Below are positions 25,309-51,968 of a stretch of DNA of 64,000 nt, piece after piece; the stretch's first letter is position 1; the number at the start of each line of letters is the position of its first letter. The DNA is taken from the NCBI GenBank assembly GCA_001692895.1, contig KV748196.1, positions 1,364,001-1,428,000 on the forward strand, given 5' to 3'. The position numbers were made by a program, and so were the translations under genes. The notes under the pieces were generated by a model. It was not told the origin of the DNA. It made no database searches and was given only the letters and a program-made list of their open reading frames with translations. This stretch comes from Cenococcum geophilum 1.58. Taxonomy: Eukaryota; Ascomycota; Dothideomycetes; Gloniales; Gloniaceae.

Positions 25309-25312
25309 ATAG

Positions 25313-25591
25313 TATAGGAGGGTACGACCTCTCTAAGATAAGAAAGTCTCAGTGCTGTCTGTCAGTCGGTCGGTCAGTCTATTAGTCAGTCACCATCAGT
25401 TAGAATTAAGCAGTAAGAAGAGAAAGAAAAGAGTATATTAAAGGAAAATTGTATATCTATTGGTTTTATCCAAGTTGTTAAAGACTCTAAGGGCTTTAGA
25501 CCAATCTATATAACTTATAGAAGACCTAGGCTCTCCCGAAGCTACGCCTAATTTAAATATTAAATTTAGGGGGCCAAATTACACTACCACA
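25313..25591 (-). repeat. 3' LTR of C
   Basis: 279 bp, TATAGGAGGGTACGACC..CACTACCACA, containing CAGTCGGTCGGTCAGTC tetranucleotide repeats like the E LTRs. It abuts the minus-strand tract AGGTGGGGGAGGTA (25592-25605). Confidence 0.9.
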
Positions 25592-25605
25592 TACCTCCCC
25601 CACCT
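25592..25605 (-). promoter_or_regulatory. Terminal polypurine tract of C
   Basis: Minus-strand AGGTGGGGGAGGTA immediately before the 3' LTR. The following GTCCCCTAAC motif (plus strand, 25614-25623) is repeated next to the internal tract at 37079. Confidence 0.75.
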
Positions 25606-27917
25606 AAGTTATTGTCCCCTAACGACTTCTAAAACTCTAAAACTCCTTATCTTCGAAACAAAGGCGCGGTAGGTAATTATATACGTTCCTTACCTTTACT
25701 ACAAACCCGAAATAGTAAATAAAGAGACTCCGTTCTAGTTAAACGAGACTATTCTTATCCGCCTGGCTAGGTAGTATAAGATATATTAGACTAGCGGCTC
25801 TCGGATAATATAGCTCTTTTACGTCCTTCCATTTGCTTAGTTCTGTCCCACAACTCTTTAGGCAACTCTATATAACTCTATCCTTCTGCAATAATTAGGG
25901 GTACTTTACTTAGATCTACCGCAACAGTTAAAGGATTAATTCCATTATTAACGCAGTAGAAGTATAAGCGGCTTTTAAAGCGCTCCATTTTAGTCCCACG
26001 TATTAGCTTAAACGTATCTTTATAATTCTTAACGGCCCTAAGACAGTAGGAATGCATCTATTTCCTAACTTCGTTCCCGTTGCTATTAAGAAAAAAATCG
26101 CAATCTTAAATTACCGCTAGAGAATCCTATCGTTATTTACTAAAAAGGGCGTTAAATAAAGCGCTAGCAGCTATAAGCTTAACTGCTATAGGGAAGCGAT
26201 ATAAAATCGCGCCGTAGAGATTGATATATCTAAACGGCGTATAAGGCGGCGCTCTTAAGTCTTAGTACGTATCTACCAACTCTGCCCAAGTACCTCCTTT
26301 AGTAACCTTAAGGTTATTATAATCGTCCTAAATACTAATAAACTATAGTAGCATTATTCGCCGGGTTCTAGTTAAAGGTCCTTTCACTCTATAAGGAAGG
26401 TAAGGTATAGTTATACGTATATCTCCTTTCTTATATAGCTAAGCTACCTAGTTAGTTACATACTTTTCTACGTCTTTAGTAGTCCAGTTTTAGTTAAAGA
26501 TCTTATAAACAAATCTATTACCCTTAGTTAATCTTTACGCCTTAAGATCCTCCTACTATAATTCTAGGTAGTAATACATACCGGGTAGGATAATTGTGCA
26601 GTTATCCTTAGTCTTATTATCTAGAGAAACGCTCCTTTAGATTATATTAGCACCGCGTTCACTTTTAAGGAGTAAGGAAATATTAATGTTAATATAACGG
26701 AAAGCTATAGAGTCTCCTTTAACCGCGAATTTTGTATAATAAGGGTAGGAAATAAGTTGCTACTAGCTATTAGGTCTAAGAGCGCAATAAAGATAATAAT
26801 ACTAAGGGTCTTATTTTATTAGCTGTTAGTAAAGACCGTAAACTATTATTCTTAACTAGCTATAATTTGGCCGCCTATTAATTAGATACTAATGGTGGCG
26901 GTATATACGCATTTCCTTATTAATTATTGCCAAGATACTAGAATCCCACCACTATCTAAATACATTTAAAATTATAGATCTTTCTCGCTGCTACACTTCT
27001 TAGTCTTTTAGTAACATTATCTAATTAAGCAAAGCCTCTCTATTATATAAAAACCTTAGCGTTAAGTTATAAATAAATTTATACGGTCCTAAGGAATTAG
27101 ATAAAACTAGAGGTCTATAAGCCTTTCTAAATTAAGAGTACGTAGTAGGATCGGTCTTTATAGTGCTAAGGTAGTTATAAGCGTAATATATTAAACGGAA
27201 TCTATAACATAGTACGGTATAGTTTAGACCCTTTATTACTAAACCTATACGTCCTCCTATAGCTTATATATACATCTAGAAAACCTTATATATCTCTAGA
27301 TTAGAACTAGCTACCCTATACTAACTACGTAAGAGCTTTATAACCTTAGTTAGTTTAATTTTAGTAGTTCGGTTTAGGGACACCTTAAGATAAGCGGGCA
27401 TATTATCCTTATAGTCACACCCTTATTTTGCGCAGAGTATCGCTATAATATCTACGGCCTCCTTAATATACTCCTTATTATCTCCCAGCTTAATAACGTT
27501 TTTATTAAATATTAATTCTACTCCTAGCCCTCCTACTTCTAGGTAAGTAATTATTAGCCCTCTTCTTAGATTCCTTTTTAATAAAGATACTAGCAGCTAC
27601 AAGGGCGAGCCAATAGGCGTTTTAGCTGTAAGAATACTCTTATTTATAGATAATAAGGGCGAGTTAACTAATATAGGTAATCCTTATTAGGACAGACTTA
27701 GCATAATACTAACGCCTCCTCCTTAAATAGGTGTTAATAGCTAAAAGGCTAAGGGATTTATTACGTTAGAAGCATATTATAGATATATTTATAGTATAAG
27801 AGCTAAGCTCTCTCCTACTTATCTAATTCCAATATTAATGACCTCTAGTCCCATAGTAGTTAGTCTCCTACTTCTTAGCGGTAGGTCCTTATTTAGAACA
27901 AGGAAGCTAGTTAAGTA

Positions 27918-28344
27918 TATAACGGAACCTTGTAGCAAGAACTACGATAGGCTCGTTATTGGGCTAGGTGTGTAGGAAATGCAAGTATAAAAGTCAACAA
28001 CGTAATAATAACTGGTGGAGTGGTTGCCTAATAGATTAACTCTAATTGTATTCTAAGAATTACTATAAGGAAGGAACTATCTAGGTAGGGACTAAGGGTC
28101 CTTAAATACACAACCATACTCCTATAAAATCCTTCTTGTACGTAATATACGCCTTATCTATATTAAACGTGACGTCCCTTACGTTTAACGCAGCTAATAC
28201 GTTTAACTATTATATGACCTTAGTTACTATTCCTTATTATATAGTTTTATTGGCTCTATTCTGGACCGTGCCTAAATTAACTAACTAGCTTCTTCCGTCT
28301 CTTCTTTAAGTAGTCGTAATATTATACTTAAAGCGTCCGTAACA
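27918..28344 (-). repeat. 3' LTR of B
   Basis: TATAACGGAACCTTG (RIP form of TGTAACGG) to ..GCGTCCGTAACA, 427 bp. Followed by the minus-strand polypurine tract AAGAGGAGGGAGATGG at 28345-28361. Confidence 0.92.
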
Positions 28345-28738
28345 CCATCTCCCTCCTCTTTATCTTTGTCCTTAAAGATACCTAGCATCTCTAGGTTGTT
28401 TACTAGAGGTATAATATCCGTCTAATTAATTTAGTTAATATTATTGCTTATTATACCTAAAGCAATTTCTTTTCTCTCTTGGGTTAAGCGTCGCCTTTAT
28501 ACTGTCTCTTTAATACTATTACTAGGTAAAGTAATAGTAATACCTTACTCTTGTTGTGCAAAAGAGGGGTTAAGTTATATTACGATTGCGAGTCCCTCTA
28601 GTCACTAACCTTCCTCTTGTTTTAAATGCACTTGTATTAATATACGTTTATTATATAACGTTCGTTCTACGTCTAATATTAAGTATATATATCCTATTAC
28701 TCTTAATAGTCTTTAAGTTCCCTAAGTAATTTATTATA

Positions 28739-29338
28739 GGGTCTCATGTTTAATCTATTACTGCGAAACTTAACGGTAAATTAGTGTGACGGCGCTGGAG
28801 CGCGTCACCTAGTCAGGGGTTCGCTTAAGACTTGGCGTGTGTATATAGACGTGGCCTCACCACCTTCTCTTGCTCCTTAGCTTAATATCTTCGTAATACA
28901 GCATTCGTTCGCTTGATCTTGCAAGCATTCGTTCAAGTCTCTGTCGAGACATTTGTTCGATGGTTCGAGCCGTCACAATTAGCCTCTGCGCTGCTTAAGG
29001 TTTAATATGCCTTAGAAGAGTCCGCACGTGTTCTTAAAGCTTAGCATCTAGCTTATGCTCGTCTTTAGCGTTTAGAACGTATCTATAAGAAAGTTTATTT
29101 AAAGGAGTGGAAGCTTATTTAATAAGGTCTTTAGGAACTAGGTAATAAAAGAATAGATTCTTTTCTAATAGAGAAGGAAATAGATCCGAGTAGCTTAGTA
29201 ACTACTCTTCTTAGGTCCCCCTTAGGTGACTTATTTTTTAGCGATCCTTCTTTATTAATGCTGCCTGACCTAATCTCTTCTAATACTTCTATACCTTTTC
29301 TATAGCGTTCTTTAAATTCTCTAGTAGCTCCTAGGTAG
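28739..29338 (+). pseudogene. Antisense ORF at the 3' end of chromovirus B, split by a solo LTR
   Basis: Plus frame: G-S-H-V-*-S-I-T-A-K-L-N-G-K-L then, after the solo LTR, A-S-A-L-L-K-V ... A-Y-A-R-L ... I-Y-K-K-V-Y-L-K-E-W ... L-F-F-S-D-P-S-L-L-M-L-P, ending TAG at 29336. Taking out the solo LTR and one TSD copy (198 nt) leaves 402 nt, the same as in A and G. Residues Y-K-K-V-x-x-K-E, K-L-I, G-L-x-E-L-x-N-K and L-R-S-P-L-G are shared between copies. Interior stops are RIP-type. Function unknown; the first half is probably coiled coil. Confidence 0.5.
28785..28977. repeat. Solo LTR, 193 bp, non-RIPped, in B
   Basis: TGTGACGGCGCTGGAGC..GAGCCGTCACA with inverted TGTGACGGC/GCCGTCACA termini and a perfect ATTAG TSD (28780-28784, 28978-28982). 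It has normal CpA and CpG content, in contrast to B around it, so it arrived after or escaped the RIP episode. Family not identified. Confidence 0.9.
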
Positions 29339-32300
29339 TCTTAGTATAGCCTATCTACTTAACCTTATACTATATTTCGTCGTTAATGTCCTTATAATTA
29401 ACGATCTTTAATACTTACCATTTGTCTTCTTTTTATCCTTTATATATGTCTACTTTATAAACCAGTGGCTTAATATTCCTATATACTGGCTCTAGCATTA
29501 CGATATACTATATAGGGTAGATCTTTATTTTAGCTAGTAGGTTTAACTTAAACGTAACCGGTAAAATCTTTTATGTAATTTTAAAAGGTCCTAGTTTAAT
29601 ATGGTCCAACTTCTTACTTAATTATTAACTCTTAAAATTTTTGTATAGTAGCCACACTTTATCTCCCTCCTTAAGATCTGGTCCCTTAGATCTCTTAGCA
29701 TTATAGTACTTTTTTATTCTCTCTTATACTTTTTTTACTAATTCTATAAGGTCTATATAAAGATTTATTAATATCTTTATTCTTTCTTTAGCTGTACTAC
29801 TTATTTTCTTCGCTTACTGTAGTAATAACGATATTCTTAGCTTATATCCGTAATTTGCCTTAAATAGTAATATGCCTATTCCTTTTTAAGGTATTATATT
29901 ATATATAAACTATATAACTGGTAATAGTGATACCTAATTATTCTATGCATAATTAATATAATGCCTTAGATACTATTTTAGCGTCTAATTTAATCTTTCT
30001 GTTTGACCGTCTGTCTGCAAATGGTATATAGTAGAAGTTACTACTTAAACTCCTTACTCCGCTAAGAATACTTTTTAGAATACTGCTACGAATCTTAGAT
30101 CTCTATCCGATATAATTTTACTTAGTGCTCTATATCTTACAAACACTTCTTTAATATAGATTTTAGCGATATCTTCCGCTGAGATTTCTTCTGTATATGC
30201 TATGAAGTATCCCCACTTTATAAGCTTATCTATTATTACTAAAATCGCGTTATAATCTTATCCGGTAATAGGATTTCTTAATTTTAGTAACTTAATAATA
30301 AAGTCCTATAATATGACCTCCTATAGTCTCTCTGGTATTTTAATAGGTTATAGCCCTCTATATAGCTTATACCTCGTTAGTTTATTTCTTTAGTAATCTA
30401 AATATTCCTTTATAACTTTTCTAGCTATCCTTTAGATTCCGTTAATAATATACTCCTCCTAGAGTCTTAATACTAAGCCCATAGCTCCATTATGTCCTTA
30501 AGTTAGTCCCTTATAGAAGTCCTCTATAAACTGTTCTACTATACTTCTTAGGATATACTTTACTTCTCAATTTTCGTATATATCTGTCTATAGATCTTTT
30601 AGTTATACTTTTAGAATTCTTTATACCTAAAAGCTTTTTAGTGTCTTATAGACTTTCTCTAGTTTATTATCTTCTTAAGTTACTACAATTTTTGGATAAT
30701 TATATCTAATTAATCTGTCTATATCTTTTTATAATAAAGCCCCTAATAGCTTTTCCTTATTTTATAGTTTAGCTTTACGGCTTAGAGCATCTACCCGCGT
30801 ATTATCTGTACCCTTAGTATACTAAATCTTAAAATGGTATTCCGTAAGTATCTCTGCCCATCTAACCTATTTTTAGTTAAGTTCCTTTATTATTAGGAAT
30901 CCTATTAGGTTCTTATAATCTGTTTTAATTATAAATAGTTTCTCTATACCTTATAAGAATGCTTTCTATTCCTTTAATGCTATAACTATACCTAATAACT
31001 CCTTATTATAGATGTCATAGTTTAACTCTAGTAGTATTATCTTTCGACTATAGTATGCTACTAGGTACCATCTATCTTAATGCCTTTATATAAAGCACGC
31101 CCCTAGTATATAGTTTAATATATCTGTCTCTATAACCGTCTCTAGTTCTAGTTAATAGATCTTAAGAACTAGCTCCTAGGTAAACAACTCTTTAACCTTT
31201 TTAAAGAGTTCTCTTTACTCCTCTCCCTATACCTATAGTTCTTCTTTCTTTATTAACCGTATAAATGGCTTAATATCCTTTAACTACTACGCTATAAACC
31301 TTCTACAGTAATTGCAAAACCCTAGGAACGATCTTAACTATATAACGTTTTCTGGTTCCTGCCAATTTACTATAGCCTTAATCTTTTTTAGATCTATGCT
31401 AAGTTAGCCTAGTTTAATAATAAATCTAATAAAATCGGTCTTTCTGGTAAAGAACTCGCATTTTTTAATTACTACTAGTATCTATTCTTTTTATAGTCTC
31501 TTTAAGACCTATTTAACGTATTCTCCGTATTCTTCCTTAGTTATTAAGTAGATAATAATATTATTAAGATATACCATAATAAATTTATTTAAGTATTCTC
31601 CTAATATATTATTAATATGCTTTTAGAATATTGCTGGTATATTTATAAGTCCGAATTATATAACTAATAGCTTATATAGTCCTTCCTTTAACCTAAAGGC
31701 TGCCTTTTATTTGTTGCCCTCCTTAATCCTAATCTAATGGTATGCCTATCTTAGATCTATCTTTATAAAGATTTGCGCATTACCTATCCTATCTTAGATT
31801 TCGCTAATTAAGGGTAAAGAATACCTATCCTTCCTAGTAATGCTGTTTAACTGTCTATAGTTAATACATAGCCTTAGTTTGCTATTCTTCTTTAGTATAA
31901 ATAGTACTAGATAACCTGCTAATAACTGCGATAGTCTAATATATCCCTTTTATAAGTTCTCTTAGATAAACTCTTTTAATACTCTATCTTCTTCTTTGGT
32001 AAGCTTATAGATTAGAAAGAACCTTAAACTTATTCCTAGTTCTAATTCTATCTTATAGTCCTATACTATATATTTTAATAGCTTTTTACTTTCCGGTAAC
32101 CATAGTTTCTTACCATACTTATAGTATCTCTTTAGTATATAACTTAGTCCTTTTTCTATTTCTTTATAGGTTGCTCCTACTTAGTACTATACCAACTTAG
32201 CTTATTATCGCATCTTACGGCGTTAAGTATTTCTAATATCAACCTAACCTGTAATTTAATTGATCCTTAGATTGTATTCCTATAACTAAGGTATACCTAA

Positions 32301-35300
32301 TACTGCCTTATCCCGTCCTAATAGTAGGATATTAAAAGATATCTTAATTTATCTTCCTTTAATAGTTATCTAAATAGGTCCTATTTTAAGATTAATAATC
32401 CCTCCTCTATAGGTTATTAGATCTCCTAAAATCGTAATTAATAGGTAAGGTTACTCCTTTTATCTATAAGGTAGTCTTATTCTTTTAACTGCTACTAGTA
32501 AGATATGGTTTCGCGTTACTCTACTATCTATTAGCGCCTTAAACTGCTAATCTTACTAATTAATTTATAAATTTAGGTGTTATCCTTAAATTCCTTTAAG
32601 GGTTTAAGGCTCTACTACTAGCTCCCTTTAGTCCTATAGGCCTCTACTTTTCTTAACTATTAGCTGCTTAATCCTAGTATACTTAGCTCGTTCTTTAGCT
32701 AATACCTAGTTCGCTTTTTATCTTTAATATACTATAGACATGTATTTTCTAGGCATTCCTACTACTATTATCCGTCTAAGCATTCTTCCATAAGAAATCT
32801 TTCTAGTTAAAGTGCCAAACTTCCTTCCTCTTAGACCTCTGCTGGATGCCATCTATATATATATTTAGCATTCCTATACTATTACTTATCTGTTATCCAG
32901 TATATCCTTATAGGGTATTTCTAATTTTTTTCCTTTAGATTCTTATGTATTTTATATATATCGTCTATATACGCAATCTATAATAACGTATAGTGTGCTA
33001 GGTGCTTTAGGTTAACCCTTAGCTTATCTTTATCCCTAAGTTTAAACCTTTATTATACTAATCTAAACGTTATAACTTTATTTATAGGTACTAAGATGCG
33101 TTTCTTACTTCTCTAGTCCTCTAAATATTCCTTTAGATCCTTTAACGTTATAATTAAGGCTCCTTTAATATGCGTTATAGCCTTCTCTGTAATTAGGTAG
33201 TCCTAGATAACTTTTTTATCTAACTATATATAGAAATCTTCCCACTTATTATTGTGCCTTTATCTATACCACTTTTAGTACAGCTGCTAGAGTATATATA
33301 GCCTATCCGTAAGGAAGTATTTTCTTATTACTATATCGTAATAGCCCTTTATATATTATTCCTTAAACCTAATTAGAATCCTTAAATCCTCTTTATCTTC
33401 TAGTTTAGTAAGCTACTTAGCTCTTAGTATACCTGCTCTTAGTCTATTAATAATTCTTTATACTAGTGCTCTATCCTTTATATATCCTAATATACTAGAT
33501 CTCTTATCTAGTTTCTGTTCTTGCTATATAATAATTCTTTACCTAAACTCTTCTATGGTTTTTTTTGGTTTACGCCTTACGCTCTAATCCTTAAAGTTGT
33601 CTTACTTCTTAATCCTAATATTAACTTTTTAATCTTTAGTCTGAATACTTTATTTAACTAGTAAATCCTCTAGGTCTATATATTTATCTCCTAGTTTAAT
33701 TACTGTTTATGCCGCAGATTCTCTAATCTATAAAGAAGCTCCTTACCTCTTATTTATAGGTGTCTTAATTTATACCCCAAATTCTTAACCCCTTAGGTTC
33801 TTTAATCCTAAGCTTACTTTTAACTTAAGCTTAGCTCTAGCCTTAGTCTAACTAGGCTTACTTAGTATTCTTATTTTATCTTAAAAGTCTTAAATCTTAC
33901 TTATCTTGTCTTAAGAATCTTATACCTATAGGAACTTCCGTCCTAAGCTTATTTGTATATTTTTAAACTAAGCTACTACTCTGCTCTATTGGTTATTATC
34001 TATTATAGGTCCTTAAGCTTACCTTATCTTATTTTAAGAATCTTAGTTATCTCTTATCTCGCTATAAGAATCTTAAGCCTTTAGCCTTTTGCCTTTATTA
34101 AGTGCTAAAGTGGTTTACTATCCTACTTCTCTTACGTCTCGCGAAGTGATAGATATCGTGTTTAGTGGGGTTTTAATTCCTACTAATATTCCCTATTCTG
34201 TAGTGGAATTATTCTCTACCTTTGGTATAATATCTCTAAGGTCTACTCGCTCCTAGTAAGCAGCCCTTATTGCCTTATTATTACGGAATGTTTTACCTAA
34301 GTTAAATTTATTATCCTTAATATCCGATCTATAAACTAGTTCGTTAGTTCCTTTATATTTTATAGGTGCTAGCTCTTATAGCTAATAGCTTACACTATAC
34401 TTAGCATCCTTATAAATTTGGTATACGTTATTGTAATAAAACATAAAACTTTTAATTAAACATTCTTTTGTTCCTCGCAGTATATTATTATCCCTTTATA
34501 CGTATATATCGTCTACTAGTCTTATACCTTTTACTATATAATAACTCTACCCACTTTTATAGTCTCTAACGTAATAACCCTGTTTTCTGCAATTTATATA
34601 AGCTCCTTCTTTAAACCATTTCTCTTGCTATGGAGTCCGCCTAAATATCTTCTACTATTAAGATCCCTAATTTGGCCTCTACTCCTTAAACCTTTAATTA
34701 CTTAATTCTTGTCCTCTAGGTTTCTATAGTTTACTCTATTTCTTATAGGTTTCTTTAATACCACTTAGGTCTATTAGCTCTGCGCTATACTATAGTTTCT
34801 AACTTAGCTTTTGTTATTGCGTACTCTGCGCCTTATATAACTGTAGAACTCTATTTTAGCCTCTCTTAGCCTATTCCCTTTAGTAGATCTAATTATTAAT
34901 CTTAATCGCCTAATTTATTAGTTCCCTTAGGGTATCCGCATCTTCTATTAGGATAATTACATCCTAAACTTTAGCCTTAAGTCCCTATTTATACTGTACT
35001 ATAAGCGCCCTATTATTCTATTTTACTTATATTGCTAGTGTCTAAAACTATATTATATACTTAATTGCTAAAGTTTATTATATAAGGTTCTAGAGTTTTC
35101 TTTCTACTGTAGTTATTTCTTCTAGGTTTCTAAATATCTGTGTAAGTTGTTCTGCAAATCCTTCCTAACTTAAGAATATAAATTACATGTCTTAGTTAGT
35201 GGTCGTCATTCCGTTTACCTGTATCTCCATAAGGTAAGGTTTAAACTACTTAAGTGCTTTTCCTAATAAGAATAGTCCTGCGTAGGCTATCCGATCTATG

Positions 35301-35602
35301 GGTATAGGTAACTTTACTCCCTCTTATAAGACCTTAAAGTATATCTATATAAGGAATCCTTTAAGCTTTAACCTTTTTCCTATAAATCTCTTAATTGATA
35401 GTAGCTTAATCTTTACTGCTCCTATCCTATTAAGTCTTTCTTCTAATACTATATTGTTAGCTATTAGCTAGTTAACTATTTCCTATAGCTATCTAACCGT
35501 TATAGGTTGCTGTGAGTTAGTATCTGCTATACTGGTATTACCTCCTGTCCCTAAAGTAGTTACTGCCGTTAATGGCATTGTGGTGGCTGCTTTTAGTGGT
35601 AT
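29339..35602 (-). pseudogene. Gag-Pol of chromovirus B
   Basis: Minus strand. Gag start is at 35602-35600 (ATG RIPped to ATA, then P-L-K-A-A). Gag runs to about 34500, protease about 32540, RT with V-Y-L-N-N-I-I-I-Y (Y-L-D-D box RIPped) at 31555-31580, RNase H about 31100-30700, integrase about 30500-29900, and chromodomain about 29470-29339. The same order is easier to read in G. Inactivated by many RIP stops. Confidence 0.75.
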
Positions 35603-35646
35603 ATTGTTTAACTTCTTATATTAATACTGTAACTAGGTAGTGATTA

Positions 35647-36073
35647 TATAACGGAACCTTGTAGTAAGAACTACGATAGGCTTATTATTGGGCTAGGTGT
35701 ATAGGAAATGCAAGTATAAAAGTTAACAACGTAATAATAACTAGTGGAGTGGTTGCCTAATAGATTAACTCTAATTGTATTTTAAGAATTACTATAAGAA
35801 AGGAACTATCTAGGTAGGGATTAAGGGTCCTTAAATATATAACCGTACTCCTATAAAATCCTTCTTATATATAATATACGCCTTATCTATATTAAACGTG
35901 ACGTCCCTTATATTTAACGCAGCTAATACGTTTAACTATTATGTGACCTTAGTTACTATTCCTCGTTATATGGTTCTATTGGCTCCATTCTAAACCGTGC
36001 CTAAATTAACCAACTAGCTTCTTCCGTCTCTTCTCTAAGTAGTTATAATATTGTACTTAAAGCGTCTATAACA
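35647..36073 (-). repeat. 5' LTR of B
   Basis: 427 bp, same ends as 27918-28344, followed by AAGTA. Differences between the two B LTRs are almost all C/T or G/A. Confidence 0.92.
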
Positions 36074-36825
36074 AAGTATCTTCCTAAGCTATACTTATTT
36101 ACCACCTAATTTAATACTGCCCTTCCTAGCATCTTCGGCGCGAGCGTAAAATCGGTCGGCTATAGTAAAGTAGTGTTCTTAATACCGCGTCCTAGATATT
36201 TGAGCCTGTTAATTAGGGCCTTATTAACTTATGCCGTTATTTTATAAAGTAAGTAGACGGTAAGCTTTTAGACGGTAAAAAGGAAGTAGTAGGAGACCGC
36301 GTATTTAAGTAGACTGTTAAGAACACCTTATCCCCAGGACTTTCGGATAGTTTCTCTAGCTTCATTATACTAATTTCTTTAATCTTTTACTATCTTACTA
36401 ACGTTAGAGATGTTCTTAAAGATTAATAAAAACGCGTCCCTTCCTAGAGATACTTATAGCCTATTATCCTAGTTAATAAAATTAACTACCACACTAGCAG
36501 TATCTACGTAGTTTTCTTAAGAGAGCAGAATCTCATTATAGATTTAAAGGAGTACTATTTAATGCCGATTAACTACAAAGCCTCTAACTTCTATAAGGAC
36601 GTTACTAATCTATTACTTAGCTCCTTTATATAGTACTAGAGGTCTACTAGATAAAGATATAATAAATATACTATTATTAATTCTATTTAACTTATAACTT
36701 TAACTAATTACAACTATATTTAAGGTTTATTAAGGGTAAAAAGGTAAAGTTCTAAATAGGGTTTTCTAATTTAAATAGTCTACTAAATCTAGGTAGTAGT
36801 ATAGAGTTCTACTAGCTCTAATCAT

Positions 36826-37066
36826 TAAATAGACTAATTATAATTTTCCATCCCTAGGATAGAAAATCGCTATTAGCTTAATAAAGGCGGTAAGCGGAAC
36901 TAATATCTTTGCAGTAAATAATACTAGATAGTTATACGTAAATATTCTTTTATCCTTACCTTACTGCCACCACGCATTAGATTTCTATAACTAAAAAAAG
37001 TAAATAAAAAAGCGCAATAAAAAGAGCTTTAGGAAATACGGTAAATAAATAAACGGATTATACGGC
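36826..37066 (-). other. Intergenic block between pol and ORF2 of C
   Basis: Non-coding as far as I can see, but conserved with E 6181-6393. It directly precedes the ORF2 start codon, so it may hold the ORF2 promoter, a splice acceptor or a re-initiation signal. Confidence 0.5.
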
Positions 37067-37078
37067 TATTATCTACAT

Positions 37079-37092
37079 CCCCTCCCCCACCT
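37079..37092 (-). promoter_or_regulatory. Internal (second) polypurine tract of C
   Basis: Minus-strand AGGTGGGGGAGGGG with the neighbouring plus-strand words AACTTAACTATCCCC, paralleling the terminal tract at 25592-25605 and its GTCCCC neighbour. Same position as the internal tract of E (12804-12818). Confidence 0.55.
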
Positions 37093-37129
37093 TAGAACTT
37101 AACTATCCCCTAGTTAAATATTTCGTACT

Positions 37130-40100
37130 TAGTTCTATTAAACAATCTTTTTAGAACATATACTTCTTAAACTACACGGCGTTATAATACTAGTAGATTT
37201 TATATAATATCCTCCTTAGGTTCTAGCTCTACTATTATTTCTTATAGTATAGTTCCGCCTAACTAGTTAAGCTAGTCTTCCTAGCAGACCTTAGATATCT
37301 ATTATTAATATAACTTCTTTAATCTATTCCCTAAAGTTTAATCACGGAACGGCGTGCTATTAAGATCCTTAATTAAGTACCATCCTTTATAAGGGTAACT
37401 CTTACATATACGGAACGGGCCCAGCCATTTTAGATCTAACTTATAACTGCTAGAATAGTCTTACTTAAGCTACGTATTATAAAGTATAACTATATCTCTA
37501 ACCTTAAATCCGTCCTAGCGAATATAGTAGGTGTTATTAAAGTATTCCTTATTTGCTACCCTTAGTCGTCTTATATACGCAACAGCCTCTTTTATATCTA
37601 CGTCTTTTTAGTTAAACTACTTTATATAAAGTACTAGTAGCTCTATAATAGTCTGGACTATTTACTAAGGTAGCGTCTACTAAGTAGGTATACAGAGTTC
37701 AATAGGAAGGACATGCTTATATCCGCATATAACTCTTACTAGCATTATTTCCATAGGCCGCTTAATAGTTATCCTATCTGCCCATAAAACGGTATAAAGA
37801 TTATCTAGTTATAAGCCATCCATCTTCACTAAAGCGTCTATTATAGGTTTATGGCCTCGCTCTATAAAGCCTTACGCCTAAGTATAGTAAGCGGAAGCCA
37901 TAACCCTTTTAATATTGTAGAGCTCTGCGAGCGCAGCGGTAATATTAGCATTCTCTCCTCTACCATCTATAGAGAGTTGTCCGAATACTCCCCATTAGCA
38001 GATAACATCTTTATAGAGGAACTTTGCTATACTTTTCATATCCTTATTTTAAAGGGCATAAGCTTCTACCTATCTAGATATATATTCTTAGGTAATAGCC
38101 AGGTATTAAAATCTAAGACGGCTTAGAGGCATAAACGTAATATTTACTACTACTTATTACTATAAGGTGGACTCCTATATAGGGTATATCGCTTCTTCTT
38201 CCTATCCTAGCTATTGCTCCTAGTATTATAAATACGACTTAATATGCCATAATATCTAATTCTATAGCCCTAGCCACTAATATTAATTTAAAATCCTCTA
38301 ATATATTTCCTTTTATCTATAATATCCGCTTTAATTATAAAGGCTTTTAATAATCTCCTACTAAGTATCCTTATTATCAACTACCCTTTATATTAGTATA
38401 TTTTTTAACTACTAGTAAAAGAGCTATTAATTATACACCAGAAACTTTAGCGCATATTATTTAAACTTTTTAAACTCCTTAGTATTTATCTTTTCTAGAT
38501 ATTATAAGGTTACTAGCTACTTTGCAATCTCCTAAGATTTCTCTAAATATAAGTCTTCTAGTAGCAAACCCGCTTCTATTTTAAGAGGGGCAGCCGTATA
38601 TTCTAAGGCACTTAGTTTACAGTTAATAAACTCTTTAATATCCTCAGTCGGCTTATTAGGTCGTTTACCATTAGGTAGCCGTTATAAAAGTCTATTAGCT
38701 AGGCTATTCTTCTTCCCTAATATATATCTAATATTAAAGTCCTATAGCTAAATCTATACTAGCCATCTTATTATTAAGGCTTTAGGTAAATTAGTAGCGG
38801 TACAATTTAGCTATATAACTAGGGTGTTTGCGTCTATCTCCACTATAAAGCGAACGCCGTATAGGTACACGCGATACTTCTTTAACGTATATAATAATAC
38901 CCAATATTTAAGCTTTCCTAAGTTATATTTCTGCTCCGCTAAAGACTAGATACCGCTTTTATATTAATACAGGTAATAATAACCTTGCATGTCTAGTTAT
39001 ATAAGGCCGCACCCCTATCTATTCTTGCATTCGTTAACGGCGAGAATAATTAGCTTAACCCCTTTACTATAATCTAGCTAAACTAATATAGGTATAGTAG
39101 TAACTGCATGCTTTAGAGTCTTTATAGTAGCTATCTGCTCTATACCCTATATAAACGGAACATTTACTTATAGTAGTTGGAAAATTAGCTTTACCTTAAT
39201 TGCAAAGTCTTTTACCTATATTTAGTAATATATAACAACTCCTAAAAACGCTTAGGCTAACGTAACGTCTTTACAGTCTTTCCAGTAAATAATCTTTACA
39301 ACCTTTAACTCTTCTAGATATTATCCTTTTCTATTATAGTAATAGCCAACTACTATAATCTTGTCTTTATAGAAGTAAGACTTTACGCCTAAAATTATAT
39401 ACCTAGCTTATTCTAAATCTGCAAGCACTCCGTCTAGCTATATAATATATTCTAAAATATATCTACGCATACCTAGAAGGCTCTCCTCCCCATTATATAC
39501 TATCTATAGGCCTTTCACTATAATATTATCTAGAAATGGCAGGGCATAGTATAAAATGTGTCGTTCTAAGATCTTAGTAATCATCCACACAAACTAGGCT
39601 ATAGAATTTATACCTTTTATAGGTACCGTTATTTATTATAAAAGTCCTAGAGGTATTATAAAAGCTATTAGGTTCTGGCTTTCTATATCTAGCTCTAATT
39701 AGTTATAGCTAGAGAAGAAGTCTACGAAAGATATAACCTTATACCCTACAAACTCCTTAGAAAATTCATCGGCATATAACGGTAGATTTATATCCCTAAC
39801 AGTTACTTAGTTAATATTTATCGCCGCGTTAATTAGTCGGTACTTATTACGTTCCTTTTTACTTATAAGAAACCATAGATTCCTATATAGGCTTTTACAA
39901 TATTCTAGAGTCCCTTAAACTAGTTGTTCTTATAATATATTTATTACTTCTCCTTATAGGGCCCTAGATACTAGAAAGTTTAGTACTTACTATACTTTAT
40001 ACGGCACAGTTTTAATCTTTAGTAGTAGAGTTACGTCTCTACCAACCCGACCCATCTCAGAGAACTCCCATACTAGAGCCTCTTCTTAGTTAAACAATAT

Positions 40101-41950
40101 AGCCTTAAGGATCTCTCGTTCTCTTAGCTAAATATCTCCTATAATTATACGCTCCAATTATTCTAGCTTTAGTCGTGTACTATAGGCCAGCTTAGTATAT
40201 TACGGCTTAAGGAAATAATTATATAGTCTAAAAAGCAATCCTTAGATAAACACCTTCTATCAATATAAGGCCACCTCTCGCCATTCTATTATACCTCCTA
40301 TAACTGTTCTATCTAGTGCCAATAAATTAACTAGGTAGACTTTATCTGCTTTCCATTTATACGCAGTTGCTATATTTATAGCGTTTAGTTAGGCCTTACT
40401 TTAGTAGCTTTCTATTTATATTATAAATAAATCTATTATCTTTAACATTTAATATATAAGAGACTTAGATTTTACTTTAAATACTAGCTTCTAATTCTTC
40501 CTTATATATTTCTTTAGGACTTCCTTTAACATTTTACTGTTAAGCTCTCTCCCTCTAATATTATACTCCTCTCCCTACTAATAGCTCTATCTAGCGGATA
40601 TCTAAAACAACATACGTCCGTATTAGAGCCGCACCTTATTTCCCTCCTCTTTATTCTTAATATCCTTCTTATCCTAATATACCAGGTTATAAGTAACCCT
40701 AGATACAATCCTAGCGGTCGCACCAGCTATATATTTCCCAAACTATTTTCTATACTAATACCTTTATCTAGTTTAAAGAACATCACATCCTTATAGGACG
40801 TTAAGAACCTTATTTTAACTCTACTATCTTCTAATTAAATAATATAAGATACCTAACCTATTGCGGTTCGTTTTATTACTAGTCTAGCCCTTACTAACAA
40901 TAGCTTACTAAGTATCACCTTATATAATATTTCCCCTATAGTAATAAACGTTATAGATATTAAGACATTACCTATTACTATAGGGACCGCATATACTAGC
41001 CTAATAAACTTAAACTAAGTTCTATTTATAGACGTTAAACGCGCACCTTATAACTATAAAGGCAGACTTAATATTAGTAGGCCGTATTATAGGGCTACGC
41101 TTTCCTTAATAAGGTTAAGCTTAGCTCTAGAGTTAATTAAGCATTTAGCCCTTCCGTCTCCTATCTACGCTTCTACCTTTAGGCACCGCCTTTAAAACCG
41201 GACAAATCCTACTTCTCGTTTAATCTAGTCCACTTCAGCAGTTATTAGGCCGGCTTAATTAGCATAAAACGTTAGGTATACTAATAACACAAATGCCTTA
41301 ACGTCCTCCTACTTCTATCAGTAAGGCTCCGTAAGGGGTAGCAAAAGAGGCTTAAAGAATAGCCTTATAACTTTAGGCATATACATAAGGCAGTCACTAA
41401 CAGTAACTTTAATAGTTTTTAACAAGATCTTGTCCGCCATTACTATTAGGCTTAAGACGTTTCCTTTTAGTATATCCATTATCCTAACTAGCTTTAGTCG
41501 TAATACTTTAACTATTATTATTACATCCGCTATTTACTCCATCTATCTTAGCTATTTAGTGTAATTGATTTCATTACCCCTATTACTGCTTAACGGTGGT
41601 GGAGAAGCCTACTACTAGGGCTATAGTGTAATTTAGATATATCCTCCTAGTTATATATTTTAAACCATTGCTAGTCATAGACCAGATAGTTTTAGAGGCT
41701 ATTTTATCACCCTTACTTCCCCTTACGGTCTCCTAAGATTATATACCCATAGCGTAGGCTATAACTAAGTTACAGCCCCTACTAAATCAACGTATATCAA
41801 CTCTACTTAGTATATATCTTCCTAGGACTTACTAAGTTCCTCTTTGCTTTTAGCGTCACTACCCTCTATAAGCTCCATAGAAGCTGCCTTTAATTAGACA
41901 CCTATCACTAGCGCATTAAAATTAATATTCGCGTTCTACCTTAGCTAGTC
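37130..41950 (-). pseudogene. Pol of gypsy element C
   Basis: Minus strand. RT catalytic region F-L-D-N-I-I-V-K-G at about 39515-39540 (second Asp RIPped to Asn), followed by Y-N-G-E-E-S-L-L-G-M-R-R-Y and later A-F-L-G-V-V, a pattern typical of one group of fungal Ty3/gypsy polymerases. The end of integrase reads L-W-A-D-R-I-T-I-K-R-P-M-E-I-M then H-V-L-P-I-E at about 37690-37810. RNase H is expected near 38700-39200. No chromodomain seen. Plus-strand open frames here (37851-38126, 40526-40723 region) are shadows. Confidence 0.75.
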
Positions 41951-42079
41951 TTTAAAAAACTAGATCTAATTATTACTTAGCAAATACAGAATTATATTTT
42001 CTAGGCGCTTACGTATTCCAGCACATATTTGGTTATTTTCATTTATATATAGGAAACTACAACAAACTAACTCTTTAAG

Positions 42080-43807
42080 CTCTGGACACTAATTAATAAA
42101 ATAGTAAGCACCCCTATATCTATAACACGTCTAATTTTATATTTAGTATGCGTCAAAGTTCCCTAGCCCTCTATACCTTCCTAGGCCCGGCTTATATTAT
42201 TCTTATAGCGCTCCCTTATAAGGCAGCTATAGTCTATTATTACCTAGTGCCAGTTACAGGTCCATTTATTCTTAACGCATTAACGCCCTATTTAGGAGCT
42301 ATATATACCATATTAGATCTTAGCAAATCCTATCTAGGAACGGCATTAAAGATATAACGCCTGCCAATTTAACTATCCCAAGATTAAGCTTCTAGAGTTA
42401 ATTAGTAAGTTTCTCTAGTTTAGGGTCTGTTTCCTAAATCGCTTAATAAGTATTTGCCAACTCGCTTAGCTAAAAGACTATAGGTAGTCAAAGGGCAGCA
42501 TCTCTTTAGTTTATTATAGCTAGTTGCTAATTATAAAATTATCTAACTAGCTAACAAAGGCCTTATTCCTTAGGATTTATAATTAATAACCAATTAGCGC
42601 CTTTATGCGAATTAAGCCTGTCTTCTACAGCTCTCCTTAGCAGGTAGAAGTTAAAAAACTCTCGCTTATTAGGGTCGGCTCCTGTTTTAGTTATTATATA
42701 TCTTTAGTATTTAAATAGGAGTCCTCTTGTAAACCAGTACCCTTATTCGCAGTTTTTTAAATTACTAGCCTTAGTAACCTTCTAGGAGATTAACGTGAAC
42801 TACCTACAGTATTCGCGTATACTGCTGGGTGGATTGTTCTTATACTACAGTATATAAGCTTCCAAGAATTCTACCGTTTTAACTTATTAAAAGTAGTTAC
42901 TTCCTTAGTAGTCTGTCCTAAGCTTTCCTATAAGTTCCATCTAGTTACTAATAGCAAACTTAGGCAGACTTCGGATCTATATCCCTATTTAATAGTCGCA
43001 ATACTCTAAAAGTCCTTAATACTTCTTATTATCTGTAACACGGTGCTAGATACATAGCCGCTTATACTATTTAATAAATTATAATACGTTTTATCCCGTA
43101 AAGTAAGGGGTCCTAGGGGTTCCCAGAGCTAGTATAGGCTAGGCTATAATATACACCTTATCTCGTTCTATTAGTAGTCTAGTAAGAAGTAGCGGACCTA
43201 TAGTTTCTCTAGAGATAGGTAGGTAGACCTTATAACCCTTATCCTCTATCTATTAAGGGTTATTGGTCCCTAATATTACGGGAGTTAGGGTTAGTATTAC
43301 ATGCCCTAGTTTAGGAGAGCTTCGCGGTTTAATAGGCTGCTTGCTTTTCTTTCCCTTTTTAGCACCCTTACCGTTATTATAGAATGGGCCTAACATTCCT
43401 AACAATCCCTTTACTAGTACTATCGCCATTATTATAAATTTAAAGGTAGCTCTAATAAATATAAGAATAATAGTATAAACTGTTGTAAATATAGTAAATA
43501 AAATATAAAAGACTTTTCTCTACTGTTCCTGGTGTACTATAGTCCTTCCTTTTATCCTTCGTCTTACTATACTACGTACTCGCCTTCTCGTCGCTACTTA
43601 CCGACCACTATTCCCGCATAGAGAGCTTGGCAAGTGTCATTGGTTTATTTTTTATAGCGGTAGCTGCGCATAGGTCGCTTATATGCCCGTACTTCTTTAT
43701 CTTAGTCGTTTTATCGCAGTTCCAGATCGTTCCTATATATCTCCTATATATAGAGCACCAGACTTCCAATCTAAAGAGCTTGCCGTCGTCCCTATATAGA
43801 ATGCCAT
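42080..43807 (-). pseudogene. Gag of element C
   Basis: ATG at 43807-43805 (M-A-F-Y-I-G-T-T-A-S-S-L-D-W-K-S-G), 6 nt after the 5' LTR and homologous to the Gag start of E. The capsid-like part reads V-K-T-V-E-F-L-E-A-Y-I-L and G-Y-W-F-T-R-G-L-L-F-K-Y (42620-42890). A zinc knuckle C-Y-R-Y-R-G-A-Y-Y-F-I-N-x-C (Cys and His RIPped to Tyr) lies at about 42085-42125. The plus-strand frame at 42148-42357 is a shadow. Confidence 0.65.
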
Positions 43808-43813
43808 AAAATA

Positions 43814-44043
43814 TATAGGAGGGTACGACCTCTCTAAGATAAGAAAGTCTTAGTGCTGTCTATCAGTCGGTCAGTCAGTCTATTAGTCAGTCACCATTAG
43901 TTAGAATTAAGCAGTAAGAAGAGAAAGAGAAGAGTATATTAAAGGAAAATTGTATATCTATTAGTTTTACCTAAGTTATTAAAGACTCTAAGGGCTCTAA
44001 ACCGATTTATATAACTTATAAAAGGCCTAGGCTCTCCTAAAGC
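43814..44043 (-). repeat. 5' LTR of C, inner part (230 bp)
   Basis: Matches 25313-25542. Cut at AAAGC (44039-44043) by element G; the remaining 49 bp are at 51920-51968. The sum is 279 bp, equal to the 3' LTR. Confidence 0.9.
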
Positions 44044-44469
44044 TGTTACGGACGCTTTAAGTACGATGCTACGACTACTTAGAGAAGAGACGGAAGAAGC
44101 TAGTTGGTTAATATAGGCACGGACTAGGATAGAACCCGTAGAACCATGTAACGAGGAATGGTAAGCGAGTCACATAATAGTTAAACGTATTAGCTGCGCT
44201 AAACGTAAGGGACGTCACGTTTAATATAGATAAGACATATATTACATATAAGAAGGATTTCATAGGAGTACGGTTATGTATTTAAGGACCTTTAGTCCCT
44301 ACCTAGATAGTTCCTTCCTTATAGTAATTCTTAGAATATAATTAGAGTTAATCTATTAGGCAACCACTCTACTAGTTGTTATTACGTTGTTAACTTTTAT
44401 ACTTGCATTTCCTATACACCTAGCCTAATAATAAGCCTATTATAGTTCTTGCTACAAGGTTCTGTTATA
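44044..44469 (+). repeat. 5' LTR of G
   Basis: TGTTACGGACGCTTTAAG..GGTTCTGTTATA (RIP form of GTTACA), 426 bp. Same family as the B LTRs in inverse orientation. Confidence 0.92.
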
Positions 44470-44513
44470 TAATTACTACCTAGTTATAGTATTAATATAA
44501 GAAGTTAAATAAT

Positions 44514-47500
44514 ATGCCACTAAAAGCAGCTACTATAACGCCATTAACGGCAGCAACTACTTTAAGGATAGGAGGTGATACTAGTATGGTAGATACTAAC
44601 TTATAGCAACCTATGACGGTTAAATAGCTATAGGAAATAGTTAACTAGCTAATAGCTAATAATATAGTATTAGAAGAAAGATTTAACGGGATAAAAGCAG
44701 CAAAGATTAAGCTACTATTAATTAAGAGATTTATAGAAGAGAGGTTAAAGCTTAAAGGATTCTTTATATAGATATACTTTAAGGTTTTATAAGAAGAAGT
44801 AAAGTTACCTATACCTGTGGATCGGATAGCCTATATAGGACTATTCTTATTAGGAAAAGCACTTAAGTAGTTTAAACCTTACCTTATAGAGATATAGGTA
44901 AATGGAATAATAACTACTAATTAAGACGTGCGATTTATATTTTTAAGTTAGGAAGGATTTATAGAACAACTTACGCAGATATTTAGAGACCTAGAAGAAA
45001 TAACTATAGCGGAAAGAAAACTCTAGAATTTTATGTAATAAACTTTAGTAATTAAGTATACGATATAGTTCTAGATACTAGCAATATAAGTAGAGTAGAA
45101 TAATAGGGTACTTATAGTATAGTATAAATAGGGACTTAAGGCTAAAGTTTAGGACGTAATTATCCTAATAGAAGATACAGATACCCTAAGGGAACTAATA
45201 GATTAGGTAATTAAGATTAATAATTAGATCTACTAAAGGGAATAGGCTAAAAAAGGCTAGGATAGAGTTTTATAGTTATATAAGGCGCAGAGTACGTAAT
45301 AATAAAAGCTAAGTTAAAAACTATAGAATAGCGTAGAGTTAATAGACCTAAGTGGTACTAAAGAAACCTATAAGAAATGGAGCAAACTATAGAAACCTAG
45401 AGGATAAGGATTAAGTAATTAAAGGTCTAAGGAGTAGAGGCCAAATTAGGGATCTTAATAGCAGAAGATATTTAGGCGGACTCTATAGTAAGAGAAATAG
45501 TTTAAAAAAGGAGCTTATATAAATTACGGAAAATAGGGTTATTACATTAAAGACTATAGAAGTGGGTAGAGTTACTATATAGTAAAAGGTATAAGACTAA
45601 TAGACAATATATATATATAAAGGGACGATAATATGCTATAAGGAACAAAAGAGTGTTTAATTAAAAGTTTTGCGTTTTGTTATAATAACGTATACTAAAT
45701 TTATAAGGATACTAAGTATGGCGTAAGCTATTAGCTATAAGAGCTAGCACCTATAGGATATAAAGGAACCAACGAACTAGTTTGTAGATTGGATATTAAG
45801 GACGATAAATTTAACCTAGGTAAAATATTCCGTAATGATAAGGTAATAAGGGCCGCTTACTAGGAGTAAGCAGACCTTAGAGATATTATACTAGAGGTAG
45901 AGGATAATTCCACTATAAAATAGGGAATATTAGTAGGGATTAAAACCCTACTAGATATAATGTCTATTACTTTATAAGACGTAAGAGAAGTAGGATAGTA
46001 AACTACTTTAGCACTTAATAAAGGCAAAAGGCTAAAGGCTTAAGATTCTTATAGCGAGATAAAAGATAACTAAGATTCTTAAAACGAGATAAGGTAAGCT
46101 TAAGGACCTATAACGGACGATAACCAATAGAGTAGAGTAGTAGCTTAGTTTAAAAATATACGAATAAGCTTAGGACGGAAGTTCTTATAGGTATAAGATT
46201 TTTAAGACAAGATAAGTGAGATTTAAGACTCTTAAGATAAGATAAGAATACTAAGTAAGCCTAGTTAAACTAAGGCTAAAGCTAAGCTTAAGTTAGAAGT
46301 AAGCTTAGGATTAAAGAGCCTAAGGGGTTAAGAATTTGGGGTATAAATTAGGACACCTATAGATAAGAGGCAGTTAAATAAAGTGTTCGGACTAAAGATT
46401 AAAAAGTTAATACTAGGATTAAGAAATAAGATAACTTTAAGGATTAGAGTATAAGGCGCAAATTAAAAGAAACTATAGAAGAATTTAGGTAAAGAATTAT
46501 TGTATAGCAAGAATAGAAACTAGATAAGAGATTTAGCATATTAGGACGTATAAAGGATAGAGTATTAGTATAAAGAATTACTAATAGACTGAGAGTAAGC
46601 ATACTAAGAGCTAAGTAGCTTACTAAATTAAAAGATAAAGAGGATCTAGGAATTCTAACTAGGTTTAAGGAATAATATATAAAGGGCTATTACAATACAG
46701 TAATAAGAAGATACTTCCTTATGGATAGACCGTATATACTTTAGTAGCTATACTAAAAGTAATATAGGCAAAGGTATAATGATAAGTGGGAAGATTTCTA
46801 TATATGGTTGGATAAAAAAGTTATCTAAAACCACCTAATTATAGAGAAGGCTATAACGCATATTAAAGGAGCCTTAATTATAACGTTAAAGGATCTAAAG
46901 GAATATTTAGAGGACTAAAGAAGCAAGAGACGTATCTTAGTACCTGCAAATAAAGTTATAATATTTAAATTAGTATAATAAAGATTTAAACTTAGGGATA
47001 AAAACGAGCTAAGAGTTAACCTAAAGCACCTAGTATACTATACGTTATTATAGATTGTGTATATAGATAATATATACAAAATATATAAGAATCTAAAGGA
47101 AAAAAATCGGAAATACTCTATAAGGATATACTAGATAACGGATAAATAATAGTATAGGAATGCTAAATATATATATAGATAGCATCCAGCAGAGGTCTAA
47201 GAGGAAGGAAGTTTAGTACTTTAACCAGGAAGATTCCTTATAGAAGAATGCTTAGACGGATAATAGTAGTAGAAATGCTTAGAAAATATATATCTATAGT
47301 ATATTAAAGATAAAAAGCGAACTAGGTATTAGCTAAAAAATAAGCTAAGTATACTAGGATTAAGCAGCTAATAGTTAGGAAAAGTAGAGGCCTATAGGAC
47401 TAAAGGGAGCTAGTAGTAGAGCCTTAGACCCTTAAAGGAATTTAAGGACAATACCTAAATTTATAAATTAATTAGTAAGATTAGCAGTTTAAAGCGCTAA

Positions 47501-50500
47501 TAAATAGTAGAGTAACGCAAAACTATATTTTACTAGTAGTAGTTAAAAGAATGGGACTACCTTATAGACAAAAGGAGTAACCTTACCTATTAGTTACAAT
47601 TTTAGGAGATCTAATAACCTATAGAGGAGGGATTATTAATCTTAAAACAGGACCTATTTAGATAACTATTAAAGGAAGATAAATTAAGATGTCTTTTAAT
47701 ATTCTACTATTAGGATAGGATAAGGCAGTATTAGGTATACCTTAGTTATAGGAATATAATTTAAGGATTAATTGGATTATAGGTTAGGTTAATATTAGAA
47801 ATACTTAATGCCGCAAGATATAATAATAAGCTAAGTTAGTATAGTACTAAGTAGAAGCAACCTATAAAGAAATAAAAAAAGGACTAAGTTATATACTAAA
47901 GAGATACTATAAGTATAGTAAGAAACTATAGTTACTAAAAAGTAAAAAGCTATTAGAATATACAGTATAGGACTATAAGATAGAATTAGAACTAAAAATA
48001 AGTTTAAGGTTCTTTCTAATCTATAAGCTTACTAAAGAAGAAGATAGAGCATTAAAAGAGTTTATCTAAGAGAACTTATAAAAGGGATATATTAGACTAT
48101 CGCAGTTATTAGCAGAATATCCAGTACTGTTTATACTAAAGAAAAATAGCAAACTAAGGCTGTATATTAACTATAAATAGTTAAATAGTATTACTAAAAA
48201 GGATAGGTATTCTTTACCCTTAATTAGCGAAATCTAAGATAGAATAGGTAATACGTAAATTTTTACGAAGATAGATCTAAGATGGGCGTACTATTAGATT
48301 AGGATTAAGGAGGGCAATAAATAAAAGGCAGCCTTTAGGTTAAAGGAAGGACTATATAAACTATTAGTTATATAATTTAGACTTATAAACGCACTAGTAA
48401 CGTTCTAGAAGCGTATTAATAATATATTAGGAGAATACTTAGATAAATTTATTATGGTATATTTTAATAATATTATTATCTACTTAATAATTAAGGAAGA
48501 ATATAAGGAATACGTTAAATAGGTCTTAAAGAGACTATAAGAAGAATAGATGCTAGTAGTAATTAAAAAATGCGAGTTCTTTACTAGGAAGACTAATTTT
48601 ATTAAATTTATTATTAAACTAGGCCAATTTAGCATAGATCTAAAGAAGATTAAGGCTATAGTAAATTAGTAGGAACTAGAGAACGTTATACAGTTAAGAT
48701 TGTTTTTAGGGTTTTGCAATTACTATAGAAGGTTTATAGCGCAGTAGTTAAAGGATATTAAGCCACTTATAAGGTTAATAAAGAAAGAAGAACTATAGGT
48801 ATAAAAAGAGGAGTAAAGAGAACTCTTTAAGAAAGTTAAAGAGTTGTTTACCTAGGAGCTAGTTTTTAAGATCTATTAACTAGAACTAGAGACGGTTATA
48901 GAGATGGATGCATTAGACTATATACTAGGGGTATACTTTATATAAAGATATTAAGATAGATGGCACCTAGTGGCATACTATAGTTAAAAGATAACACTAC
49001 TAGAGTTAAACTATAACATCTATAATAAGGAGTTATTAGGTATAGTTACAGTATTAAAGGAATAGAGAGCATTCTTATAAGGCACAAAGAAACTATTTAT
49101 AGTTAAGACGGATTATAAGAACCTAATAGGATTCCTAATAATAAAGGAACTTAACTAAAGATAGGTTAGATAGGTAGAGATGCTTATAGAATACTATTTT
49201 AAGATTTAGTATACTAAAGGTATAGACAATACGCGGGCAGATGCTCTAAGCCGTAAAGCTGAACCATAAAATAAGGAAAAGCTATTAGGGGCTTTATTGC
49301 GAAAAGATATAGACGGATTAATTAGATATAATTATCTAAAAATTATAGTAACTTAAGAAGATAATAAACTAAAGAAAGTTTACGAGATACCGGAAAGCTT
49401 TTAGGTATAAAGAATTCTAGAAGTATAGCTAGAAGATCTATAGACGGATATATATAAAAATTAAGAAGTGAAGTATATCCTAAAAAGTATAGTAGAGTAG
49501 TTTATAGAAGATTTTTATAAGGGACTAACTTAAGGACATAATGGAGCTATGGGCTTAGTGTTAAGACTCTAGAAGGAGTATATTATTAACAGAATCTAAA
49601 GAATAGCTAGAAAGGTTATAAAGAAATATCTAAATTACTAAAGGAATAAACTAATAAGGTATAAGCCGTATAGAGGGCTATAACCTATTAAAATACTAGA
49701 AAGACTATAAAAGGTTATATTATAGGACTTTATTATTAAGTTACTAAAATTAAAAGATCCTATTACCGGATAAGATTATAATATAATTTTAGTAATAATA
49801 GACAAGCTTATAAAGTAGGGATACTTTATAGCCTATACGGAAGAAATATTAGCGGAAGATATTACTAGAATCTATATTAAAGAAGTATTTATAAGACATA
49901 GAGCACTAAATAAAATTATATTAGATAGAGATCTAAGATTTATAGCAGTATTTTAGGAAGTATTCTTAGTAGAGCAAAGAGTTTAAGTAGTAACTTTTAC
50001 CGCATACTATCCGCAGATAGACAGTTAAATAGAAAGATTAAACTAGACACTAGAGTAGTATCTAAGGCATTATATTAATTATGCATAGAATAATTAGGTA
50101 TTACTATTACTAGTTATATAGTTTGCATATAATATAATACCTTAAGAAGGAATAGGTATATTACTATTTAAGGCAAATTATAGATATAAGCTAAGAATAT
50201 CGTTGTTACTATAGTAAATAAAGAAAACAAGTAGTACAGCTAAAGAAAAAATAAAGACGTTAATAAATCTTTATGTAGACCTTATAGAATTAGTAAAGAA
50301 AGTATAAGAAAGAATAAAAAAGTACTATAATGCTAAGAGATCTAAGGGACTAGATCTTAAGGAGAGAGATAAAGTATAGCTACTATATAAAATTTTTAAG
50401 AGTTAACAACTAAGTAAGAAGTTGGACTACGTTAAACTAAGACCTTTTAAAATTATATAAAAGATTTCACTAGTTATATTTAAGTTAAACCTACTAACTA

Positions 50501-51914: not shown

Positions 51915-51919
51915 AAAGC

Positions 51920-51968
51920 TACGCTTAATCTAGATGTTAAATCTAGGGGGCCAAATCACACTACTATA
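51920..51968 (-). repeat. 5' LTR of C, outer 49 bp
   Basis: Continuation of 43814-44043 after G. Ends CACACTACTATA (RIP form of CACTACCACA), then the ATAG duplication 51969-51972. Confidence 0.88.

Follow-up and report, generated by a model that had tools for sequence, protein, structure and literature searches.

Within a 64,000-nucleotide stretch of contig KV748196.1 from Cenococcum geophilum 1.58 (positions 1,364,001 to 1,428,000, hereafter the window) lies a Ty3/gypsy long terminal repeat (LTR) retrotransposon, which we call element C. Between its pol and its 3' LTR, C carries a gene of ~950 codons for a predicted 2-oxoglutarate (2OG)/Fe(II) oxygenase, which has been mutated by repeat-induced point mutation (RIP) and split by the insertion of chromovirus B. 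A first-pass annotation had proposed a minus-strand frame of about 1005 codons here, running from 36825 to 25647; the large gene before the 3' LTR stood, but its length is ~950 codons and its homology begins at ~36660. A search of 5.8 billion database sequences with the mutated frame revealed a single protein, the intact homologue P0005 (950 aa, a JGI record; E 1.4e-179). In tblastn, P0005 matched the minus strand of the window over residues 1-195 (36660-36076, 62.6% identity) and 195-950 (27917-25650, 61.4% identity), and BLASTP also aligned it without gaps to both pieces of the frame. Both halves of the gene abut B at the same P0005 residue, 195, and so join in frame once B is excised, as the annotation had claimed; it was also right that the stops are only TAA and TAG (29 of each and no TGA in 951 collinear codons). 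Comparison of the gene with P0005 over 948 codons revealed 585 identical codons, 333 explained by C-to-T or G-to-A changes alone, and 30 that were not. Such changes therefore account for 333 of the 363 differing codons, against a mean of 19% and a maximum of 26% in 500 shuffled controls. The E value and this excess over the shuffles indicate that the match to P0005 is not due to chance.

Net of the nested elements B and D, C is 10,619 bp long. It is flanked by the target duplication CTAT (51969-51972 and 25309-25312), and its ends sit inside E, a further chromovirus, of which B shows the uninterrupted form; B is itself bounded by the duplication TACTT (36074-36078 and 27913-27917). The reverse transcriptase (RT)/RNase H region of C matched PDB entries 4ol8 (E 1.2e-14) and 7q5b of Ty3 (E 5.7e-14). 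RNase H profiles exceeded their cut-off on the mutated C sequence, on which RVT and integrase profiles gave no match. An intact pol collinear with that of C, P0128 (a JGI record), has Pfam RVT and RNase H and then, after RT, integrase domains; a chromodomain is absent from its precomputed Pfam list. The longest contig for P0128 is 10,869 bases, and that for P0005 is 11,780 bases. Over 1089 codons the pol of C has 690 the same as P0128, 367 RIP-consistent and 32 not, and another 20 codons beyond a shift of frame split into 13, 6 and 1, respectively. The residual differences not attributable to RIP are alike in pol (32 of 1089 codons) and the oxygenase gene (30 of 948), which indicates that the two have carried the same mutational load and share the same history. 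No Pfam profile matched the presumed gag/protease region. These data are best explained if C belongs to an autonomous ~10.6-kb Ty3/gypsy family with the order gag-pol-oxygenase and was inactivated by RIP. That the oxygenase gene belongs to the element is close to certain, and the mutation pattern, together with the relatives, suggests that the host is a RIP-active fungus.

Table 1. Element C, its oxygenase gene and nested elements in the window
Feature	Position	Strand	Basis
Element C, complete Ty3/gypsy retrotransposon	25313..51968	minus	LTRs, 4-bp duplication CTAT, empty-site comparison with B
5' LTR of C, first part, split by D	51915..51968	minus	88% identity to 3' LTR, 49 bp
5' LTR of C, second part	43814..44043	minus	92.6% identity to 3' LTR, 231 bp
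Presumed gag/protease region of C	40491..43440	minus	position only; tblastx 40% over 75 aa against element F
pol of C (RT, RNase H, integrase), RIP-mutated	37141..40490	minus	aligns without gaps to intact pol P0128
First polypurine tract GGTGGGGGAGG, just after pol	37081..37091	minus	28/29 other copies, <=3 mismatches
Spacer between pol and oxygenase gene, pyrimidine-rich near start	36661..37080	minus	79-91% alike in 28/29 other copies
5' part of oxygenase gene, matching P0005 residues 1-195 and encoding the helical N-terminal domain	36076..36660	minus	tblastn; model
3' part of oxygenase gene, matching P0005 residues 195-950 and encoding the linker, CxC...CxxH region, PhyH-like dioxygenase domain and tail	25650..27917	minus	tblastn; model
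Second polypurine tract GGTGGGGGAGG, just before 3' LTR	25594..25604	minus	28/29 other copies, <=3 mismatches
3' LTR of C, 279 bp	25313..25591	minus	directly 3' of gene in 28/29 other copies
Chromovirus B inside oxygenase gene	27918..36073	minus	5-bp duplication TACTT; LTR pair
Chromovirus D inside 5' LTR of C	44044..51914	plus	5-bp duplication GCTTT

The genome (177 Mb) was searched with the mutated protein, with P0005 and with a distant relative, P0029. With the mutated protein 59 of 287 candidates were scored, giving 59 matches, and P0005 and P0029 gave 48 and 56 matches, respectively. Combined, the searches revealed at least 72 distinct oxygenase places, and the matches listed for these places, including the 56 scored with P0029, contained neither an intact copy nor a stand-alone paralogue. 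The order of pol, gene and LTR noticed by the annotation is repeated in these copies: the end of pol was found upstream in 28 of 29 other fetched copies (the exception being L038) and a C-type LTR downstream in 28 of 29 (the exception being L033). Conversely, 41 pol copies were scored from 3133 candidates, and 37 of them have a same-strand oxygenase match within 10 kb downstream. The distance from the start of the match to the oxygenase was 1116-1126 bases in 28 of the 37; in the window it is 9286 bases because B has inserted. Three uninterrupted copies measure 10,594 to 10,615 bp from LTR to LTR and contain both pol and the oxygenase gene, and their flanks read as the 4-bp duplications CTAG, ATAG and ATAG. 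Of five further loci, one (L041) contains both pol and LTR, three (L050, L054 and L055) show spacer and LTR in sequence that stops short of pol, and the fifth, L039, is considered below.

The spacer between pol and the oxygenase gene is preceded by a polypurine tract, and an identical 11-mer stands just before the 3' LTR; as a control, 27 of 783 stretches of 100 bases contained a match to it with at most three mismatches. We infer from the bracketing tracts that the spacer and gene were added as a cassette behind an older element end. The first tract may be the fossil of that end or a second plus-strand primer. A related element, F, lies on the minus strand at 3863-15752 of the window, with an LTR pair that is 92% alike and 76-79% like the LTRs of C. 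It shares with C the post-pol spacer (81.5%, 6273-6156) and a polypurine tract (12816-12806), has no oxygenase match, apparently lacks a C-type pol and contains inner open reading frames that appear copia-like by eye. F is possibly a non-autonomous relative of C.

The catalytic residues proposed by the annotation, after RIP changes had been undone, are present in the intact protein. F-R-Y-I-N of C aligns with F-R-H-I-D in P0005 (residues 600-604), and P-Y-L-P-Y-R with P-H-L-P-H-G (residues 699-704); C retains the Arg ten residues past the second His position, and its own metal-triad codons read Y, N and Y. In an alignment of 85 of the 120 relatives listed, His602, His703 and Arg713, which is 10 residues past His703, were kept in 85 of 85, and Asp604 in 84 of 85 (Asn in P0039). 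His602, Asp604 and His703 are predicted to form the metal triad and Arg713 to bind 2OG. Modelling of the structure gave a double-stranded beta-helix (jelly roll) with both His on strands, and a fold search, of which the best 50 matches were considered, matched 2OG oxygenases, DUF1479 proteins being best with PhyH-type enzymes also near. The annotation's view of a gypsy element with an extra gene of 2OG/Fe(II) layout is thus upheld by the Ty3-matching RT/RNase H, the jelly-roll model and the fold matches, and nothing that it had named as contrary evidence was encountered, as the residues are kept, a jelly-roll core is predicted and the gene is linked to a retrotransposon.

The model suggests a protein with a helical, partly coiled-coil N-terminal domain (pLDDT, a model-confidence score, 87.9), a disordered linker, a Cys/His motif, a jelly roll of PhyH/DUF1479 type and a basic tail. 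The motif, which precedes the oxygenase domain, comprises a C-x-C and a C-x2-H pair (P0005 residues 361, 363, 407 and 410), both near-invariant, that may form a metal site, possibly for zinc. The N-terminal domain is conserved, and so is the Cys/His motif (83 of 83 and 84 of 84 aligned). PhyH (PF05721) scored 17.1 bits on P0005 against a cut-off of 22 and matched 12 of 50 relatives at E up to 0.1; it was above cut-off in five of nine chosen relatives, all five of which had been picked for an existing PhyH label. The Pfam profile of DUF1479 gave no match in P0005 or in the nine or fifty relatives scanned. The annotation had pointed to TET/JBP and AlkB enzymes and suggested a check that included JmjC. 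The jelly roll with H, D and H that it asked for is predicted, but Pfam scans of P0001-P0004, P0005, the nine relatives and the fifty relatives (15 families listed for the fifty) revealed no match to TET/JBP, AlkB or JmjC, and membership in TET/JBP or AlkB by profile was rejected. From the conserved residues and the predicted fold, it is very probable that the progenitor of C encoded an active 2OG oxygenase. The family numbers 163 database proteins, whose named sources are all fungal except for one moss record that is probably contamination; among the fungal ones are the Venustampulla, Coleophoma and Penicillium records P0029, P0061 and P0106.

RIP produces only transitions, and transversions among the copies therefore reflect their older history. 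We compared the 25 of 29 copies that align without gaps across 950 codons. Transversions common to at least two copies fell at codon positions 3, 1 and 2 in the numbers 36, 6 and 7 (binomial P 1.1e-8), in contrast to 16, 14 and 12 for transversions private to one copy (Fisher P 0.0013); these P values are indicative only, as sites in related copies are not independent. The third-position excess among shared transversions indicates that the gene was selected during spread, and the pattern fits a protein that was under selection while the element spread and under none after insertion.

As for what the oxygenase did for the element, we tentatively favor a role in anti-silencing, at somewhat less than an even chance. 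The enzyme would be translated from the element's transcript or expressed from a promoter within the spacer, and would oxidize some substrate to the element's benefit; in doing so it would erase or change a mark of silencing, be it on DNA, RNA or chromatin, and the element would stay transcribed in vegetative cells. We favor this role by analogy with two cases, one of AlkB in gypsy elements of orchids and one of TET/JBP in DNA transposons of fungi. In one study, Ty3/gypsy elements of Phalaenopsis carry an AlkB-type 2OG-dependent dioxygenase gene, the product of which demethylated N6-methylated adenine (m6A) in vitro, and its authors propose anti-silencing (PMC9289625). C resembles these elements as a gypsy LTR element with an extra 2OG/Fe(II) oxygenase gene, but they are 25 kb long with an AlkB-type domain (PF13532) and in vitro activity, whereas C is 10.6 kb, and its predicted 950-aa protein, known from sequence, has a PhyH/DUF1479-type domain (PMC9289625). 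Kojima (2025) described TET/JBP genes in fungal DNA transposons and proposed escape from silencing, and remarked in that survey that TET/JBP enzymes were encoded by no retrotransposon (PMC12730594). The likeness to C is a fungal mobile element with a 2OG/Fe(II) oxygenase; those elements are DNA transposons with a TET/JBP profile, whereas C is a retrotransposon with a different oxygenase lineage (PMC12730594). Uptake of a 2OG oxygenase by transposons has thus occurred at least two times outside this family, once as AlkB (PMC9289625) and once as TET/JBP (PMC12730594).

Several observations, however, weigh against reading the gene as a selected, anti-silencing part of the element. The nearest folds among the best 50 matches are of the DUF1479/PhyH kind and not TET/JBP or AlkB. 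All of the places found (at least 72) carry stops, which indicates that the gene gave no protection from RIP here. Asp604 has become Asn and His703 Tyr in 25 of 25 gap-free copies, with His602 retained in nine and Arg713 in 13. RIP suffices to explain the missing Asp604 and His703, and an inactive progenitor as their cause was set aside because 6 of 32 His and 9 of 24 T-preceded Asp sites, likewise prone to RIP, have lost the residue just as completely; this is no proof of activity, and the last progenitor in this genome may still have been inactive. The end of pol offered too few sites to serve as a positive control for selection, with shared transversions of 3, 1 and 2 and private ones of 1, 3 and 2 at positions 3, 1 and 2. 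Among the matches listed, 4 of the 41 pol copies have no oxygenase match. Finally, L039 (G000:C42:1175063-1177888), the best genome match to P0005, has the gene and spacer, but neither the end of a C-type pol nor a C-type LTR is recognizable within 1500 bases of it, and the cassette may be present in another element family too.

Characterized enzymes of DUF1479/PhyH type act mostly on small molecules, and this makes a metabolic oxygenase (a small-molecule hydroxylase or similar), captured from the host and spread through host benefit or altered metabolism, a serious rival, although we consider it unlikely. The large conserved N-terminal domain and Cys/His motif are unlike compact metabolic enzymes; YbiU (4rgk, 7twe) and Candida GIG2 (6akz), at 12% sequence identity, are compact cellular enzymes that lack both this domain and the linker. 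Further, no intact stand-alone copy is listed among the 56 scored matches of P0029, and selection acted while the gene was in the element. A slightly smaller chance is given to an oxygenase that targets RNA or protein of the element or host, by RNA demethylation or by hydroxylation of Gag, integrase or a restriction factor, and so aids the replication cycle instead of erasing chromatin marks; the scanned proteins gave no AlkB profile match, and a substrate is not readable from fold similarity. Very improbable is a passenger gene without a role, kept by faithful copying alone. That all copies seen are dead speaks for it, but the contrast between shared and private transversions and the gap-free alignment of 25 of 29 copies largely refute it already. 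A host gene or chance frame caught between elements, outside C, could be suggested by this single window alone and was rejected with practically no chance left to it, given the fixed place of the gene in the other copies (28 of 29, and 37 of 41 for pol) and the target duplications outside the LTRs.

For LTR retrotransposons, gag and pol are regarded as sufficient. Our data suggest that a fungal LTR family kept a large enzyme gene as its third gene and that selection maintained this gene while the element was copied many times over, although in this host no copy seen has survived silencing and RIP. A large fungal protein family is thereby placed in a genomic context for the first time and given a role that can be tested. 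If the role is anti-silencing, this ~950-aa PhyH/DUF1479-fold family could be a third transposon-borne 2OG oxygenase lineage beside TET/JBP and AlkB, countering silencing mainly in Ty3/gypsy elements of RIP-using fungi; we offer this as a speculation that is doubtful at present. In searches of an open-licence library, none of the papers listed described, by title and abstract, a 2OG oxygenase in a fungal retrotransposon. Boty of Botrytis cinerea is alike in being a fungal gypsy element with an additional gene, brtn, but the available passages describe brtn as antisense and name no oxygenase (PMC8365987).

During these analyses we also noted other features of the window and genome. An open frame of 335 aa without a RIP signature on the plus strand at 58868-59875 matched HTH_Tnp_Tc3_2 (E 4.2e-10) and possibly represents a young Tc1/mariner-type transposase. 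Several unrelated tandem arrays of high G+C, with units of 18, 20, 12 and ~41 bases, lie at 19415-20990. Elsewhere in the genome, RT matches at G000:C77:757907 and C134:8572 fall in stop-free frames of 1054 and 1396 aa, indicating that unmutated copies exist in other families of retroelements here.

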